Below are positions 2,580-58,350 of a stretch of DNA of 62,536 bases, in pieces. The stretch spans positions 1-62,536 of the forward strand of contig JALUXU010000029.1 of NCBI GenBank assembly GCA_027013225.1, read 5' to 3'. Position numbers and translations under genes: made by a program. The DNA comes from Acidihalobacter sp. GTDB taxonomy: Bacteria > Pseudomonadota > Gammaproteobacteria > DSM-5130 > Acidihalobacteraceae. Within the stretch, counting starts at the first letter, position 1. Every line of letters starts with the position of its first letter. A model generated the notes under the pieces. The model had not been told where the DNA came from. It made no database searches and was given only the letters and a program-made list of their open reading frames with translations.

Positions 2580-3209
2580 ATGCATCGTACTCGCGTAAAA
2601 ATCTGCGGTCTGACACGTCCTTCTGACCTCGCCTTGGCCGTGGCGGCGGGCGCGGATGCCATCGGACTGATCTTTTATCCTCCCAGCCCGCGGTTTCTGT
2701 CCATTGAAAAGGCCGTTGAATTACTTCGTCCTCTGCCTGCTTTCGTCACTGCCGTGGGCCTTTTTCTGGATGCCGAGCCTGCGTGGGTACGCGCGGTATT
2801 GGACAGGGTACCCCTGGATCTTCTCCAGTTTCATGGCAAGGAATCACCTCAAGAATGCCGCAGCTTCGGCCGGCCTTACATGAAAGCCCTGGGGATGGGA
2901 GGTAAAGAGGATATTCATGCGCTGGCCAGAGAATATGGCGATGCCGCGGCGTTGTTGCTCGATAGTCATGCCCCGGGGGCAGCGGGCGGCACTGGGCTTG
3001 CTTTCGACTGGTCGAAAATACCTAACGATCTGCCGCGGCCGGTGGTGCTTGCAGGCGGCCTTGGACCTCAAAATGTGCGCCAGGCAGTGCGCGTTGTTCG
3101 CCCTTATGCTGTAGATGTCAGCAGTGGCGTAGAATTGGCGCCTGGAGTCAAGAATCCACGTTTGATCGAATCCTTCATACACGAGGTGAATTGTGGCGAT
3201 AGCGAATGA
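2580..3209 (+). CDS. trpF: Phosphoribosylanthranilate isomerase
   Basis: A 209-residue single-domain TIM barrel that isomerises phosphoribosylanthranilate to CdRP in tryptophan synthesis. The N-terminus VKICGLTR contains the catalytic cysteine, and the phosphate-binding end [13 protein letters not shown] and DVSSGVE near the C-terminus are typical. It is monofunctional, not fused to trpC. The end overlaps the trpB start by 17 bases, marking the trpFBA operon. Confidence 0.95.
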
Positions 3210-4425
3210 AACCTTGCCCAGGCGCTTGAGTTGGGCCGACTATCCTGACCCCGCAGGGCATTTTGGCCCGTATGGCGGCGTGTTCGTGGCCGAGACGCTC
3301 ATGGAGGCCATCGAAGAGTTAAAGCACACTTGGGCCCGCTTGCGCGCCGATGAGGCATTCTGGAAAGAATTCGACGCCGATCTCGCCCATTATGTTGGCC
3401 GGCCCAGCCCGCTCTATCACGCCGAACGCTGGAGCAGGGAACTGGGTGGCGCCAAGATCCATCTCAAGCGGGAGGATCTCAATCACACCGGCGCGCACAA
3501 GATCAATAACACCATCGGACAGGCGCTTTTGGCCAAACACATGGGCAAGACCCGAATCATCGCCGAAACAGGAGCGGGGCAGCACGGCGTAGCTTCGGCC
3601 ACGGTCGCGGCGCGTCTCGGACTGGAATGCGTAGTCTACATGGGAGAGGAAGACATTCAGCGGCAAGCGCCCAACGTCTACCGCATGAAACTGCTGGGCG
3701 CGCAAGTCGTACCGGTAACCAGCGGGTCGCGCACCCTCAAAGATGCCTTGAATGAGGCCATGCGTGACTGGGTGACGCATGTCGACGACACTTTCTACAT
3801 CATCGGCACGGTGGCCGGCCCACATCCTTACCCGCAGATGGTGCGCGATTTTCAGTCGATCATTGGCCGGGAAGCGCGCGCTCAGTCTCTAGAGCAAATC
3901 GGCCGCCTTCCGGATGCGTTGATCGCTTGCGTGGGCGGTGGATCTAATGCCATCGGCTTGTTTCATCCCTTCTTGGATGACGCCGAAGTGCGCCTGATCG
4001 GCGTCGAAGCCGGAGGTTTGGGCGTCGATACCGGCAAGCATGCCGCCCCTTTGACAGCGGGCCGCCCCGGCGTGTTGCACGGCAATCGCACTTACCTCAT
4101 GGAGGACGAGGAGGGCGAGATCTTGGCGACTCATTCGATATCGGCAGGACTCGATTATCCCGGCGTCGGTCCCGAACATGCCTGGCTTAAGGATACCGGC
4201 CGCGCCGAATACGTCGCGGTCAACGATGACGAAGCCTTGGCCGCATTTCATGCCCTGACCCGCACCGAAGGCATCATTCCCGCGCTAGAGTCCAGCCATG
4301 CACTGGCCTATGCGGCCAAACTCGCTGTGCAGTTACACCCGGACCAGCATCTCGTGGTCAATCTTTCCGGGCGAGGGGACAAAGATATCAACACCATTGC
4401 GCGCCTGGAGGGGATCTCGCTGTGA
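3193..4425 (+). CDS. trpB: Tryptophan synthase beta chain
   Basis: A 410-residue PLP enzyme joining indole and serine to make tryptophan. The PLP lysine is Lys103 in [13 protein letters not shown], and the phosphate-binding loop [10 protein letters not shown] and the C-terminal serine-rich turn NLSGRGDKD are present. The start is GTG at 3193, supported by GAGGTGA a few bases upstream; it lies inside the trpF tail. The stop overlaps the trpA GTG start, so the alpha and beta subunits are coupled in translation. Confidence 0.97.
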
Positions 4426-5264
4426 GCCGTATAGCCGATTGCTTTAAAAAACAAAAAGCGCGCAATCGCTGCGCTTTGGTGCCTTATATAACAGCGGGTG
4501 ATCCCCATCCCGACTACACCGTGGAATTCATGCATACGCTGGTAGAGGCGGGTGCGGATCTGATCGAGCTGGGCGTGCCCTTTTCAGATCCGATGGCCGA
4601 TGGCCCCGTGATTCAGAGCGCTCATGAGCGCGCCCTTTGTCATCGCGTGGGGCTTCATAAGACATTGGAAATGGTGATGGAGTTCAGGCGCAATGACCAG
4701 GATACGCCCATCGTGCTCATGGGCTATCTCAATCCGGTGGAACGTATGGGTTACGCCAGTTTTGCCGCGGCGGCGCGGGAGGCGGGTATCGATGGCGTGT
4801 TAACCGTCGATCAGCCTCCCGAGGAAGGAAAGGAACTTTTCCATTTGCTCGAGGAAGAAGCGCTCGATCCAATATTTCTATTGGCGCCGACGACCAAGCC
4901 GGCGCGGCTCGATCGCATTTGTGCGCACGCGCGGGGGTATGTTTACTACGTCTCTCTCAAGGGCGTGACTGGCGCCGACACGCTGGACATCCATGACGTC
5001 GCCGAACGCATGGGACTGATTCGTGAACATTGCAAATTGCCGGTTGGTGTGGGTTTTGGTATCAAGGACGCCGATACAGCCGCGAAGATGGCCCGTGTCG
5101 CCGATGCAGTGATCGTCGGTAGCGCCTTGGTGAAGCTGATAGAGAAAAATGTCGATGAGCCGCAACAAATTGCACCGGCTTTACGAGCCCGCCTGACAGC
5201 CATGCGATCCGCCATGGATGAGGCGCGTGCAACGGAATCCAAGATGGAGGGAATGATACGATGA
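4422..5264 (+). CDS. trpA: Tryptophan synthase alpha chain
   Basis: A 280-residue TIM-barrel subunit that cleaves indole-3-glycerol phosphate and channels indole to TrpB. Both catalytic acids are at the usual positions, Glu49 and Asp60, in [17 protein letters not shown]. The GTG start overlaps the trpB stop by four bases, and the stop overlaps accD in the same manner. The C-terminal tail (about 12 residues past the barrel) is slightly longer than average. Confidence 0.97.
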
Positions 5265-6148
5265 GTTGGTACGAAAAACTGTGGCCTTCGCGCATCCGCA
5301 CGGAAGCGCGGGGGAAACGCGGCGTCCCGGAAGGTTTGTGGCAAAAATGTCCAGCCTGCCAAAGCGTGCTCTATCGGCCCGAATTGGAGCGCAACCTTGA
5401 AGTCTGCTCCAAATGCGGTCATCACATGCGCATCGGAGCGCGCCGCCGCCTCGATATCTTTCTGGATGAAGGTGATCGAGTAGAGATCGGCGAGGAACTG
5501 GCCCCCGTAGACAAGCTGCGCTTTCGGGACATCAAGAAATACAAGGACCGTCTCGCTGCCGCCCAGAAAGAAACCGGTGAAAAAGACGCCATGGTGGTCG
5601 TGCGCGGGCATTTACTGGGCCGGCCTCTGGTGACAGCGGCCTTCGAATTTCGCTTCATGGGCGGTTCCATGGGGTCTGTCGTGGGAGAGCGTTTCGTCCG
5701 CGGCGTAGAAACAGCAATGAGCGAAGGTATCCCCCTGGTTTGCTTTTCCGCCAGCGGCGGCGCCAGGATGCAAGAAGCGCTCTTCTCCCTCATGCAAATG
5801 GCAAAAACCAGCGCCGCGCTGGCGCGCCTCTCCAAGGCTGGAATTCCCTTTATTTCCGTATTGACCGATCCCACTATGGGGGGCGTGTCCGCTAGCCTGG
5901 CCATGCTCGGCGATATCATTATCGCCGAGCCCAAGGCATTGATCGGTTTTGCCGGCCCTCGGGTCATCGAACAAACGGTACGAGAAACGCTTCCTGAAGG
6001 CTTTCAACGCAGCGAGTTCCTGCTCGAGCATGGGGCGATCGACATGATTGTAGATCGGCGGCAAATGCGCGATCGGATCGCTACCCTTTTGGGGATGCTA
6101 CACGAGCGGCCGCCAGCGGAAATCGCCAGCGAGGTAGAGGCGGTTTGA
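5261..6148 (+). CDS. accD: Acetyl-CoA carboxylase carboxyltransferase subunit beta
   Basis: A 295-residue subunit that with AccA transfers CO2 from carboxybiotin to acetyl-CoA, the committed step of fatty-acid synthesis. An N-terminal zinc ribbon with Cys30, Cys33, Cys49 and Cys52 precedes the crotonase-fold carboxyltransferase domain (oxyanion-forming glycines around SASGGARM and [10 protein letters not shown]). It is coupled to trpA by ATGA and to folC by TGATG. The partner accA lies far away at about 26 kb. Confidence 0.97.
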
Positions 6149-30720: not shown

Positions 30721-31464
30721 TTGATCAAGGATTACTTTCACGGTTTTATCGCCGTGCTGCGCGCTCTTGGCATGGTGTGGAAACCCCGCCTGAGGCGCTT
30801 CATCCTCATCCCCTTGTTACTGAACACGGTGATATTCGCCGTTGCCATCGGCGGGCTTTCGTATCTGATCGAGAAGCTGATGCTAAGCTATATTCCACAA
30901 GGGCTGCTGTGGCTACAATGGCTGCTGTGGCCCTTGCTACTCGCGGCATTCGCTCTTGCAGTTTTATTTACATTTTCATTGCTTGCAAACTTCATCGCCG
31001 GCCCGTTTACAGGGTTGTTGGCCGAACAGGTGGAAAAACAACTCACGGGTAGGCCGCTTCCTTCAGTTCAAGGTATCTCTGTAAATCTGCGCGGCGCTTT
31101 TGTGGGCCTGAAAACGCAGACGGCGACACTGCTTTATATTCTGATCTGCGCTATCCCATTGTTTTTGTTGAGTTTTATTCCATTTTCCGCTTTATGGTTG
31201 CCGTTTCTTTGGTTTCTTTTCTCGTCTTGGATGTTGGCGCTGGGATACCTGGCTATCCCCGCCGGCAATCATCAGCTGACGTTCTCACAAATACGTGCTC
31301 TAGCCAGAAAGCGTCGCGCCCTCGTGTTCGGCATGGGTACGGCAATGAGCCTGTTGACCTTTCTGCCCTTGTTCAATTTTTTCGCTTTAAATGTCGGTAC
31401 CATTGCGGCGACCCTGTTGTGGAGCGAACAACTCAAGAACCTTGCAGCTAAGAATGTTTTGTGA
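30721..31464 (+). CDS. cysZ: CysZ-like sulfate transporter (EI24 family)
   Basis: A 247-residue inner-membrane protein of the CysZ/EI24 family, which takes up sulfate for cysteine synthesis. It opens DYFHGFIAVLRALGMVWKPRLRRFILIPL split by a short loop and has hydrophobic blocks at about 25-47, 63-92, 136-165 and 200-225. The start is taken as TTG at 30721 because AAAGGAG lies eight bases upstream; no ATG fits. The 204 bases to dnaE hold two short hairpins (one CCTCAC/GTGAGG) and no gene. cysE at 49 kb would use the product pathway. Confidence 0.85.
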   Translation: MIKDYFHGFIAVLRALGMVWKPRLRRFILIPLLLNTVIFAVAIGGLSYLIEKLMLSYIPQGLLWLQWLLWPLLLAAFALAVLFTFSLLANFIAGPFTGLLAEQVEKQLTGRPLPSVQGISVNLRGAFVGLKTQTATLLYILICAIPLFLLSFIPFSALWLPFLWFLFSSWMLALGYLAIPAGNHQLTFSQIRALARKRRALVFGMGTAMSLLTFLPLFNFFALNVGTIAATLLWSEQLKNLAAKNVL

Positions 31465-31479
31465 TATTAGGACTCTTAA

Positions 31480-31981
31480 GGGGATCTCTAAAAATTCACC
31501 GCCGAACGTGGAGATCATAGGGTCACCGAAAGCGAACGAGAGCCAAGCGATGCAGCCCGGATTCTTCGACCTTGATGAACGCCACGAGCAACTGGAAAAG
31601 CTGGGTGACCCACTGCCGGAACTGGCCCGTGTGGTCGACTGGGAAAGTTTCCGCCCGGTGCTTGAAAAAGCGCATCAGAAAGAGCGCAAGAGCAATGCCG
31701 GTCGCAAACCGTTCGACGGGGTGCTGATGTTCAAGGTGTTGGTGTTGCAACACTTCTACACTCTGGCCGATGACCAGACGGAGTATCAAATCCGCGACCG
31801 TCACTCCTTCTGCCGCTTCCTGGGATTGCCGCCTGAAGGGAAAGTGCCGGACGTCAAGACCCTCTGGCTGTTCCGAGAGCGGCTGAAAGCGCTGGGGTTG
31901 GTCAAGGAGCTGTTCGCCGAACTGATGGTGCAAATCGAGATGGCCGGCTACATCCCGCGGCGCGGACAAATAGAGGTTCCC
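31480..31981 (+). mobile_element. Internally truncated IS5-family element with TTAA target duplication
   Basis: A 502-bp unit between cysZ and the next gene. The left end GGGGATCTCTA and the inverted right end GGGAACCTCTA match at 9 of 11 bases, and both ends are flanked by TTAA (31476-31479 and 31982-31985). TTAA fits the YTAR target duplicated by the IS5 subgroup. Inside is only the first third of the transposase followed almost at once by the right end, so the copy has lost its catalytic part and could move only if served in trans. Confidence 0.8.
31550..31981 (+). pseudogene. N-terminal fragment of an IS5-family transposase
   Basis: About 140 codons from ATG 31550 read MQPGFFDLDERHEQLEKLG, the usual IS5 start, through the DUF772 DNA-binding region (DGVLMFKVLVLQHFYTLAD, SFCRFLGL) up to MAGYIPRRGQI. 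There the frame meets the element's right end and runs on into unrelated sequence. The DDE catalytic domain is absent, so the protein cannot be active. Confidence 0.85.
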
Positions 31982-32046
31982 TTAATTCACAATCTTTTTC
32001 AATTCCTGGTTACCATAAGCCCCATCAGCGTAAGGAAAGTTCCAAC

Positions 32047-33282
32047 ATGAGCCAATCTTTAAATTTCGCCCGGCATGGCGACAAGCAAAATTCAGAATTT
32101 TTTGAAACCTATCTTCAACGCTTACTTGAAGAACGTGATCGTGTCGGATTGACGGATCTGATCCGCGAAATCGATGCATTGATGATTACGGTTGAACCGG
32201 GGCATTCTCTCGCCTATCTGGCCGAACTCTCGCTGATGACCCCTTATCATTATCTGGTTACGCTAGAAAGCGAAAGCCACTTCACTCATCTCATGCGCAT
32301 CGACTTGGAAAGTCCAGACCTGCTGGTGCGGGAAGTCAAGGATCCGACCACCCGTGGAATCTTTCGCAGTCTCAACGAGGTCTATCCGGTCGGCCACCAT
32401 AAACCTTACAGCCGCTACATGGGCGAAATCGTGCGTGTTCGCAATCTGCATGAGGTGGTCAAACTACAACGCGATCGCGAAATCCGTTTCTTTAACGCTG
32501 ACGAGGTGCGCAAGCTCGAACTGCCCGGTAATCTTGCCGTATGCAAGCCCTCGCCTTATACCCACAACATCGTCGCTTACATGGAACGCGAACCAGAGGA
32601 TATGCGGGTCTATGCCCTGGGCGTCAGCCGCATCGATATGGCGGCTCAAGAAGCATATGAAGCCGCCAAGGAGTTGCAATACAAGCTCGGCATCCATACC
32701 CTGCTGCAGCCTATCGACCATCTGGCGACACGCATCTACAGTCAGAACCGTGAAGTGGCCATCCTCGAATATCTTTCCTTGTCGAGCTATTACTATTGGG
32801 GCTCATACGACATCAAGGATCAGAACTCCTCGACCAATGTTACCAAAAGCATTCATTACGCGAAGGAAGCCAAGAGTCCTGCCAAGGTTTTCACAGCCAA
32901 CAATACCCCTTATTTTGTCAATCATCTGGACGGCCTGCCTTCTCCCACCGAGACATTCGTTCGCAACTATGGCCCACGTTTGCACCATATCGCTGTAAGC
33001 GTGAGTGATGGCGAGACCGCCGGTATGGAAAACATCGATTTTGTGGTCAAGTCCATCGCCGACCAAGGTAAAGATTTTCTTCTCGATGTCATCGGCTCCA
33101 AGGAAGAAGGCCTGAAACAGATTTTCTCGAGCGCTTCCGAGCATTCGTCGCTGATTATTGAATATGTACAACGCTTCGGAGAATTCGACGGCTTTTTTGC
33201 CCGCGACAATGTCGCGGAGCTCACGCGCGCAGCGGGCGTGGAAGAATCCTTGAAGGAGCTCGATGCCAAATCGCGGCGCTGA
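32047..33282 (+). CDS. VOC-superfamily protein resembling 4-hydroxyphenylpyruvate dioxygenase
   Basis: A 411-residue cytosolic protein. The C-terminal half (about 218-395) follows the order of the HPPD catalytic domain: PIDHLATRIYS (His225), a linker, SPTETFVRNYGPRLHHIAV (His314) and IIEYVQRFGEFDGFF (Glu372). These three correspond in order to the two-His-one-Glu iron ligands of HPPD, although the last spacing is shorter. The N-terminal half (1-215) is divergent and I do not recognise it. AAGGAAAG before the ATG is a good ribosome binding site. It could be a non-heme iron dioxygenase or a related VOC enzyme; homogentisate pathway genes are not nearby. Confidence 0.6.
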   Translation: MSQSLNFARHGDKQNSEFFETYLQRLLEERDRVGLTDLIREIDALMITVEPGHSLAYLAELSLMTPYHYLVTLESESHFTHLMRIDLESPDLLVREVKDPTTRGIFRSLNEVYPVGHHKPYSRYMGEIVRVRNLHEVVKLQRDREIRFFNADEVRKLELPGNLAVCKPSPYTHNIVAYMEREPEDMRVYALGVSRIDMAAQEAYEAAKELQYKLGIHTLLQPIDHLATRIYSQNREVAILEYLSLSSYYYWGSYDIKDQNSSTNVTKSIHYAKEAKSPAKVFTANNTPYFVNHLDGLPSPTETFVRNYGPRLHHIAVSVSDGETAGMENIDFVVKSIADQGKDFLLDVIGSKEEGLKQIFSSASEHSSLIIEYVQRFGEFDGFFARDNVAELTRAAGVEESLKELDAKSRR

Positions 33283-33297
33283 GAATTGGCCCGAAAT

Positions 33298-34476
33298 CTA
33301 GTCCTGCCCCAAGAACCTGGCAATCCGCTCAACACCTTCGTGCAATTGCTCCAAAGAAGTGGTATAGGCAAAGCGTACATGCTGGCTGGCGCCAAAACTG
33401 CCAAAATCAATCCCTGGAGTAATTGCCACGCCGGCTTCCTTGAGCAAGCGCCGCGACAATTCCATGCTATCGATGCCTAGACGTTCACAGTTGGCATAAA
33501 GATAGAAGGCACCTTCCGGCGTGACCGGGATATCGAACCCCAGCTCGCGCAAGGCAGGTAACAGAAAATCCTTTCTTTGCCCGAATGTTTCACGGCGTTT
33601 TTCGAAAATGGCCTCAGCTTCTGGGGTAAACGCCGCCAACGCAGCGTGCTGCGCAGGTGTTGGCGCACAGATAAAAATATTTTGTTGCAGTTTTTCCAGC
33701 ATTCTTACGTATGCCGGAGGGGCAACGATCCATCCCAGGCGCCATCCAGTCATACCAAAGTATTTTGAAAAACTATTGATTACGAAGACTTCGTCGGAAA
33801 AAGCGAGTGCCGTGCGCGCTTGTTTCCCGTAAACCAGACCGTGGTAGATTTCGTCGACGATCAAAAATCCCTTTTGACGACGCGCATATTCGATCATGGC
33901 CTCGAGCTCTTCTTCATCTATGATCGTGCCGGTGGGATTGGCCGGAGAGGCAACGAGTGCCGCGACGGTCGAACGGGTCCAATGGGCGCGCAGAATCTCG
34001 GCTGTGAGTTGGTATCGAGTGTCACGATGAACCGCCACATTGCGGCCATGGCCTTCGAATAAACGCACAAAATGCCGGTTGCATGGGTAGCCAGGATCGG
34101 TCATCAGCACTTCGTCGCCAATATCGACCAGTACGCCCAATACCAGTTGCAGCGCGCCTGAGGCGCCGCAAGTGACGATGATGCGGGAAGGATCGACATC
34201 GACCTCATAGCGTCTTCGATAATGACCCGCTATGGCTTCGCGCAGTGCCGGCAATCCCAATGCGGGGCTGTATCCTGTATAACCTTGTGCCAGCGCTTCC
34301 TGACCGGCACGGATAATGGGAGATGCCGTGGGGAAATCGGGTTCCCCGACTTCCATGTGGATGATCGTTTCCCCCATCGCTTCCAGTTGCTTGGCTTTTG
34401 CCAGCAACTCCATGACATGAAACGGCGCGATGTCTTCCGCGCGGCGCGCAAGATGCCAGGCGTCGGGTTTTTTCAT
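33298..34476 (-). CDS. Class I/II pyridoxal-phosphate aminotransferase
   Basis: A 392-residue fold-type I aminotransferase of the AspC/AlaT-like group. The PLP lysine is Lys238 in NSFSKYFGMTGWRLGW; MEVGEPDFPT, GASGALQLV and SPANPTGT supply other cofactor contacts, and VRFAYTTS holds the carboxylate-binding Arg near the C-terminus. Substrate cannot be read from sequence. It starts within the der stop (ATGA), so it is the last gene of the ndk-to-der run, and it is convergent with the HPPD-like gene, 15 bases apart. Confidence 0.88.
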   Translation of the reverse strand: MKKPDAWHLARRAEDIAPFHVMELLAKAKQLEAMGETIIHMEVGEPDFPTASPIIRAGQEALAQGYTGYSPALGLPALREAIAGHYRRRYEVDVDPSRIIVTCGASGALQLVLGVLVDIGDEVLMTDPGYPCNRHFVRLFEGHGRNVAVHRDTRYQLTAEILRAHWTRSTVAALVASPANPTGTIIDEEELEAMIEYARRQKGFLIVDEIYHGLVYGKQARTALAFSDEVFVINSFSKYFGMTGWRLGWIVAPPAYVRMLEKLQQNIFICAPTPAQHAALAAFTPEAEAIFEKRRETFGQRKDFLLPALRELGFDIPVTPEGAFYLYANCERLGIDSMELSRRLLKEAGVAITPGIDFGSFGASQHVRFAYTTSLEQLHEGVERIARFLGQD

Positions 34477-57495: not shown

Positions 57496-58350
57496 TGCGG
57501 TTCCGGTGGCATGTTCGTGCAGAGCGAGAAGTTCGTCGAGGAACACGGCGGCCGGCTGGGCGATATCGCCGTCTATGGCTAGGAGTCCACCCCCACCACC
57601 TGGAAGCTGGCCCGGATGAACTTCGCCATCCGCGGCATCGACGCCGACCTCGGCCCCCACCAGGCCGACAGCTTCCACAACGATCTACACAAGGATCTGA
57701 AGGCCGACACCATCCTCGCCAATCCGCCCTTCAAGATGTCCGATTGGGGCGGCGAGCGCCTCAAGGAGGACGTGCGCTGGAAATACGACGTGCCGCCGAC
57801 GAACAACGCCAACTACGCCTGGATCCAGCACTTTATTTACCACCTCTCACCCAACGGTACCGCTGGCTTCGTCATGGCCAACGGCTCCATGTTCACCTCC
57901 ACCACCGCGGAGATGGCCATCCGCAAGGGGATTATCGAGGACGACCTGGTGGACTGCATCATCGCCCTGCCGGGCCAGCTCTTCTACACCACCCAGATCC
58001 CGGTGTGCCTCTGGTTCCTCACCCGCAACAAGAAAGCCGACCTCAAACGCGGATTTCGCGACCGCGGCGGCGAGACGCTCTTCATCGACGCCCGCCGCAT
58101 GGGAAAACTGGTGGACCGGGTGCACCGGGAACTGACCCCGGAAGACATCGACCTGCCCCTCTACGGCGACGATCTCTCCCTCGACGATCTGGCCAAACTC
58201 AGGGCCCGGATCGAGGAGACCACCATCCCCCACCAAGTGGACCGGGTGCTGGTGAAGGAGACCGACAACCCGAAGCTGCTGGCGCATATTCGGGAGCATG
58301 GAGTGGAATGGTTTCGGAGAGAGGGTAAAAGCAGGTCTGGGAATGATTGA
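57496..58350 (+). pseudogene. Type I restriction-modification methylase subunit (HsdM) remnant
   Basis: From CGSGGMFVQSEKFVEEHGG (SAM-binding motif I) the frame continues through [14 protein letters not shown] (catalytic NPPF motif) and [19 protein letters not shown] to a stop at 58348. The N-terminal third is missing: the residues expected before CGSGG are replaced and broken by a TAG. A second TAG at 57580-57582 interrupts the motif I region (expected Gln before ESTPTTWKL). The downstream part is long and uninterrupted, so decay is fairly recent. Confidence 0.85.

Follow-up and report, generated by a model that had tools for sequence, protein, structure and literature searches.

What does this locus encode, and which pathway does its product belong to? 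In the window that we analyzed (the whole 62,536-nucleotide stretch of DNA from Acidihalobacter sp.), one gene encodes a VOC protein whose C-terminal half resembles the catalytic domain of 4-hydroxyphenylpyruvate dioxygenase (HPPD). The first-pass annotation, which was made from the letters alone, suggested that this might be an uncharacterized family of non-heme iron dioxygenases, with an N-terminal half of unknown nature and with a neighboring aminotransferase that could supply a 2-oxo acid. Direct reading of the sequence confirms that the open reading frame is genuine: it begins with ATG, a stretch resembling a ribosome binding site (AGGAAAG) lies directly 5' of the start, and the three proposed metal ligands are found as H225 (in PIDHLAT), H314 (in RLHHIAV), and E372 (in LIIEYVQ). 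Table 1 lists the features.

Table 1. Locations of the VOC gene, its predicted functional residues, and the adjacent gene, numbered along the window.
Feature	Position	Strand	Evidence and remarks
HPPD-like VOC protein, 411 aa	32047..33282	+	Open reading frame; relatives aligned
N-terminal half, about residues 39-196	32161..32634	+	AF2 model and fold matches; two VOC-like beta-alpha-beta-beta-beta units
C-terminal domain, residues 221-394	32707..33228	+	hhalign to HPPD catalytic domain
His225, predicted first metal ligand	32719..32721	+	Aligned with the His of HPPD's DHL; invariant
His314, predicted second metal ligand	32986..32988	+	Aligned with the His of HPPD's QHIA; invariant in intact copies
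Gln358	33118..33120	+	Aligned with the Gln of HPPD's LLQIF motif; invariant
Glu372, predicted third metal ligand	33160..33162	+	Aligned with the Glu of HPPD's FFEIIQRKG; invariant
Class I/II aminotransferase	33298..34476	-	Aminotran_1_2 (Pfam); a neighbor, not a conserved partner

Searches with the protein as a single sequence gave no convincing match in Pfam, NCBIfam, or the sequences in PDB, and a profile built from 55 members of the family gave no convincing match to any sequence family in these databases. Even up to E = 1, NCBIfam had no match, including TIGR01263 (HPPD), and Pfam had no match to PF07063 (DUF1338/HglS). We rejected a match to Rotavirus_VP1 (E = 0.041), which is far below that family's cut-off.

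A scan of GTDB genomes showed that relatives of the protein are encoded at 182 or more places in public genomes. The best 80 of these (at least 182) relatives are 70-77% identical over essentially their full length. Nearly all of these 80 are labelled Proteobacteria, and many are chemolithoautotrophs or methylotrophs, judging by their names. The gene is present in 7 of 398 Pseudomonadota genomes (a fixed draw) and in 26 of 369 genomes from the window's class, a count that leaves out short or broken copies. No distant homologs were found among those 369 genomes: matches were strong, or fragments, or due to chance, and the family has a sharp boundary. (Of two weak matches that shared the same range of the profile, we checked one, and it was GroEL, not a relative.) The plasmid and viral collections that we searched contained no relatives.

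If the three proposed ligands varied freely among homologs, this would argue against a metal site, as the first-pass annotation had pointed out. H225, H314, and E372 do not vary across the alignment of 81 sequences and are also kept in about 30 further copies from the genome scans that cover them, so every intact copy that covers these positions has all three. The sole exception is H314Q in L123 (G580:C16:216485-217605). The frame of this copy is broken at codon 222 (the coding sequence changes frame between codons 222 and 223), which probably reflects either gene decay or a mistake in the assembly. By itself, the invariance of the ligands carries little weight, since 37% of the columns in the alignment of 81 sequences are invariant. 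Just 5 of the 16 histidines are fully invariant, and both ligand histidines are among these 5.

We used hhalign to align the VOC family with 25 HPPDs, and the alignment spans residues 221-394. H225, H314, and E372 fall on the three iron ligands of HPPD. The Gln of the LLQIF motif, the QR-x-G motif, and the GF...N motif of the C-terminal helix are likewise in register; these motifs and the His-His-Glu order are what the VOC protein shares with HPPD and hydroxymandelate synthase (HMS). The score of 31.6 (E = 0.0023, or 0.00097 with the C-terminal half alone) is higher than for all 200 column-shuffled profiles (mean 17.3) and for the reversed profile (15.0). The best shuffle, at 30.8, is near the real score, and because the HHsearch probability is low (12-22%), we consider the alignment to be good but not overwhelming. 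The same alignment bears out another proposal from the annotation, that the spacing before the Glu is shorter than in HPPD: the second His and the Glu are 58 residues apart, which is about 25 fewer than in the aligned HPPDs. Also, the Gln that precedes the second ligand His in HPPD is replaced by His313. The missing residues and the replacement of this Gln suggest a substrate other than 4-hydroxyphenylpyruvate.

In sequence, the N-terminal half has no meaningful match to HPPD. In the AF2 model of the full-length protein (mean pLDDT of 63), most of the N-terminal half has pLDDT values of 70-94, except for a loop at about residues 100-122, and it contains the two repeated units listed in Table 1; most of the C-terminal half is below 50. 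The top fold matches for the full-length model are HPPD and HMS, and the best two have VIA Z scores of 12.0 across 235-237 residues at 4.2-4.3 Å. The match rests mainly on the N-terminal half. Because HPPD and HMS come first, this half is probably a diverged VOC domain, that is, a pair of VOC units like the N-domain of HPPD, and is no longer well described as unknown. If the model is correct, then the protein would have the two-domain VOC fold of HPPD and HMS. Methylmalonyl-CoA epimerases are also among the fold matches. HglS is absent from the fold matches listed, which is uninformative either way. A separate model of the C-terminal domain, with low confidence (pLDDT of 48), has H225 and H314 in first strands and E372 in the final one, an arrangement of predicted strands that agrees with VOC enzymes; its best fold match (VIA Z of 5.0) is not a VOC protein, and no VOC family is clearly ahead.

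HPPD, HMS, and HglS all use Fe(II), bound by His-His-Glu, to decarboxylate a 2-oxo acid and to hydroxylate it with O2 (PMC7286885). HglS, the 2-oxoadipate dioxygenase-decarboxylase of the DUF1338 family, shares this chemistry and the VOC fold, and its sequence has no significant identity to that of HPPD (PMC7286885). The VOC protein differs from HglS in lacking a match to PF07063, and its alignment and fold matches go to HPPD. By the curated models, it lies outside of both HPPD and DUF1338, yet it probably works like both. The proposal of an uncharacterized HPPD-like iron family is supported by the alignment of the ligands in the C-terminal half, the fold matches led by HPPD and HMS, and the lack of any named family; the parts about the N-terminal half and the aminotransferase (see below) are not supported.

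The genes near the relatives suggest what the protein might work with. Among the best 80 of at least 182 relatives, 62 loci have genes for a circularly permuted ATP-grasp protein and an alpha-E protein within 6 kb, 39 have transglutaminase/DUF2126, and 17 have a protease that matches solved structures of Anbu and is therefore assigned to it. In 38 of the same 80 loci, the gene immediately upstream of the VOC gene, no more than 300 bp away and in the same orientation, encodes alpha-E; in 14, the gene immediately downstream, again in the same orientation, encodes a transglutaminase. By chance, we would expect alpha-E that close to the VOC gene at about 0.6 of the 80 loci (a rough estimate that assumes a 3 Mb genome with two genes for alpha-E). 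A ParA/CobQ-like ATPase is encoded nearby in 9 of the 80 loci (at L069:12536-13225 and eight others), and sometimes its gene is directly downstream of the VOC gene (L022, L025, L041, and L079). In L003, two similar Anbu genes (3192-4031 and 5135-5956) flank a transglutaminase-like gene on the minus strand, just upstream of the VOC gene. The VOC gene of Methylomonas sp. LW13 (L062) is one of those linked to the cluster.

These genes also co-occur with the VOC gene across genomes. In the fixed draw of 398 Pseudomonadota genomes, alpha-E is present in 212 (53%) and Anbu is present in 144 (36%). All 7 of the genomes in this draw that carry the VOC gene have alpha-E (0.012, hypergeometric test), and 6 of the 7 have Anbu (0.010). 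Furthermore, alpha-E is present in 35 of 36 other carriers, most of which were picked because adjacency was not obvious, and Anbu is present in 35 of the 38 carriers checked; all of these counts ignore kinship, and small binomial values for co-occurrence overstate the case because the carriers are related to one another.

The families that surround and co-occur with the VOC gene (Anbu, ATP-grasp, alpha-E, and transglutaminase) are those of the Anbu operon. In the available excerpts of the papers that describe it, this operon has four genes and no experimentally confirmed role, a role in peptide synthesis or protein tagging is proposed, and the VOC protein is not mentioned (PMC5666114, PMC6376114). 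Genes of the operon respond to nitrogen limitation (PMC5666114, PMC5491218) and are targets of NtrC/sigma54 (PMC5491218). We looked for a sigma54 site upstream of the VOC gene in the window and found none, and at loci with a divergent ATP-grasp gene, the best sites scored only slightly higher than shuffles did. In the literature searched, no paper turned up that treats HPPD along with transglutaminase and ATP-grasp, within a scope that did not take in the neighborhood survey of Iyer et al. 2009. (The rlo operon of P. aeruginosa is a different ATP-grasp system; PMC12239564.) Overall, the VOC protein is likely to be a newly recognized partner of the Anbu/ATP-grasp system.

The explanation that we favor, and which we consider moderately probable, is that the protein belongs to the HPPD type of Fe(II)/O2 enzymes and modifies a molecule bearing a 2-oxo acid that the Anbu/ATP-grasp peptide system either uses as a substrate or makes as a product. 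Our computations show homology, the alignment and invariance of the ligands, the linkage of the genes, and their co-occurrence; the iron, the O2 chemistry, the 2-oxo acid substrate, and the pathway step are what we infer. A two-domain VOC enzyme of the HPPD/HMS type would bind Fe(II) via H225, H314, and E372, and would chelate a 2-oxo acid and O2, leading to oxidative decarboxylation and hydroxylation. The 2-oxo acid might enter the product of the ATP-grasp system or might form from it. Because the VOC gene is encoded with this system in most lineages, the enzyme most likely modifies one of the system's substrates or products. A bolder and more tentative version of this idea is that the family forms a new branch among the iron oxygenases of the HPPD type and that its members oxidize a peptide which the system of circularly permuted ATP-grasp and alpha-E produces; this modification would be the first known redox step in the Anbu pathway. 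The genes for ATP-grasp, alpha-E, transglutaminase, and Anbu are widespread, and a conserved oxygenase-like partner, if true, would narrow the possible chemistry of the system and would give a single-protein entry point to the pathway. The HPPD/HMS class would also gain a new sequence family.

Enzymes of the VOC superfamily have diverse mechanisms, and the protein might belong to the Anbu/ATP-grasp system but perform non-oxidative chemistry with a divalent metal (as an epimerase, lyase, or hydrolase) instead of using iron and O2. The epimerases among the fold matches and the His next to the second ligand, where HPPD has Gln, would fit with this. We consider it unlikely, because the ligands in HPPD's order, the Gln of LLQIF, the QR-x-G motif, and the GF...N tail align specifically with HPPD. 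Another idea, which seems less plausible still, is that the protein has no catalytic activity and instead serves the ATP-grasp/Anbu machinery as a scaffold or regulator, with its metal site kept for stability. Conservation is very high along the full length, which could reflect protein contacts beyond the active site alone, but the ligands and the Gln of LLQIF are present in every intact copy, and the lone change to a ligand, H314Q, comes from L123, where the frame is disrupted.

Returning to the favored partnership with the Anbu/ATP-grasp system, the genes are not linked in the window's own genome. The VOC gene is on contig C29, the genes for ATP-grasp, alpha-E, and transglutaminases are on C5, and Anbu is on C42. 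Nor is the VOC gene adjacent to the cluster in the window's own taxonomic family; physical linkage is typical of members of the system but is not required of every one. The simplest reading is that the VOC gene became unlinked from the cluster in the window's lineage. The cluster on C5 (L093, 6149-15471) has two ATP-grasp/alpha-E units in one place: a transglutaminase, an ATP-grasp/alpha-E fusion, and a transglutaminase-DUF2126 gene on the minus strand, and a stand-alone ATP-grasp gene and alpha-E on the divergent plus strand.

Within the window, the gene order is cysZ, a transposase remnant, the VOC gene, and the convergent aminotransferase gene, which does end 15 bp from the VOC gene on the opposite strand, as annotated. 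The remnant is an open reading frame with a DUF772 transposase domain (31391-32050, plus strand) that overlaps the start of the VOC gene by 4 bases; apparently, it is a truncated IS5-type transposase. We considered a recent displacement of the VOC gene by this insertion sequence and rejected it, because members of the window's family have the gene in the same place with no match to the remnant. The order cysZ, VOC gene, aminotransferase, der, bamB recurs in two genomes from another genus of the same family, and in a genome from the same genus, all of these genes except cysZ were found.

Could the aminotransferase supply a 2-oxo acid to the dioxygenase, as originally suggested? The 15 bp between the gene ends and the recurrence of the order within the family are what one would expect, but this seems improbable: the two genes are convergent and not co-transcribed, they are about 2.7 kb apart in two members of the family, and none of the window's neighbors, including the aminotransferase, is near the VOC gene in any of the best 80 of at least 182 relatives (L001-L080). 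The neighboring aminotransferase is local synteny only.

Finally, although its fold and ligands are HPPD-like, it is very improbable that the protein is a true HPPD of tyrosine or homogentisate metabolism, given the lack of a match to any curated model, the shorter stretch that leads up to the Glu, the replacement of Gln by His313, and a gene context with no relation to tyrosine. The first-pass annotation had also reported that no homogentisate pathway genes are present; for HPPD, which is the part of the pathway that our search covered, this extends to the host genome, where TIGR01263 has no match at E = 0.001. Elsewhere in the window, an open reading frame at 57616-58350 (plus strand), amid short open reading frames, resembles part of the methyltransferase subunit of a type I restriction-modification system, and this region is possibly a degraded restriction-modification system.
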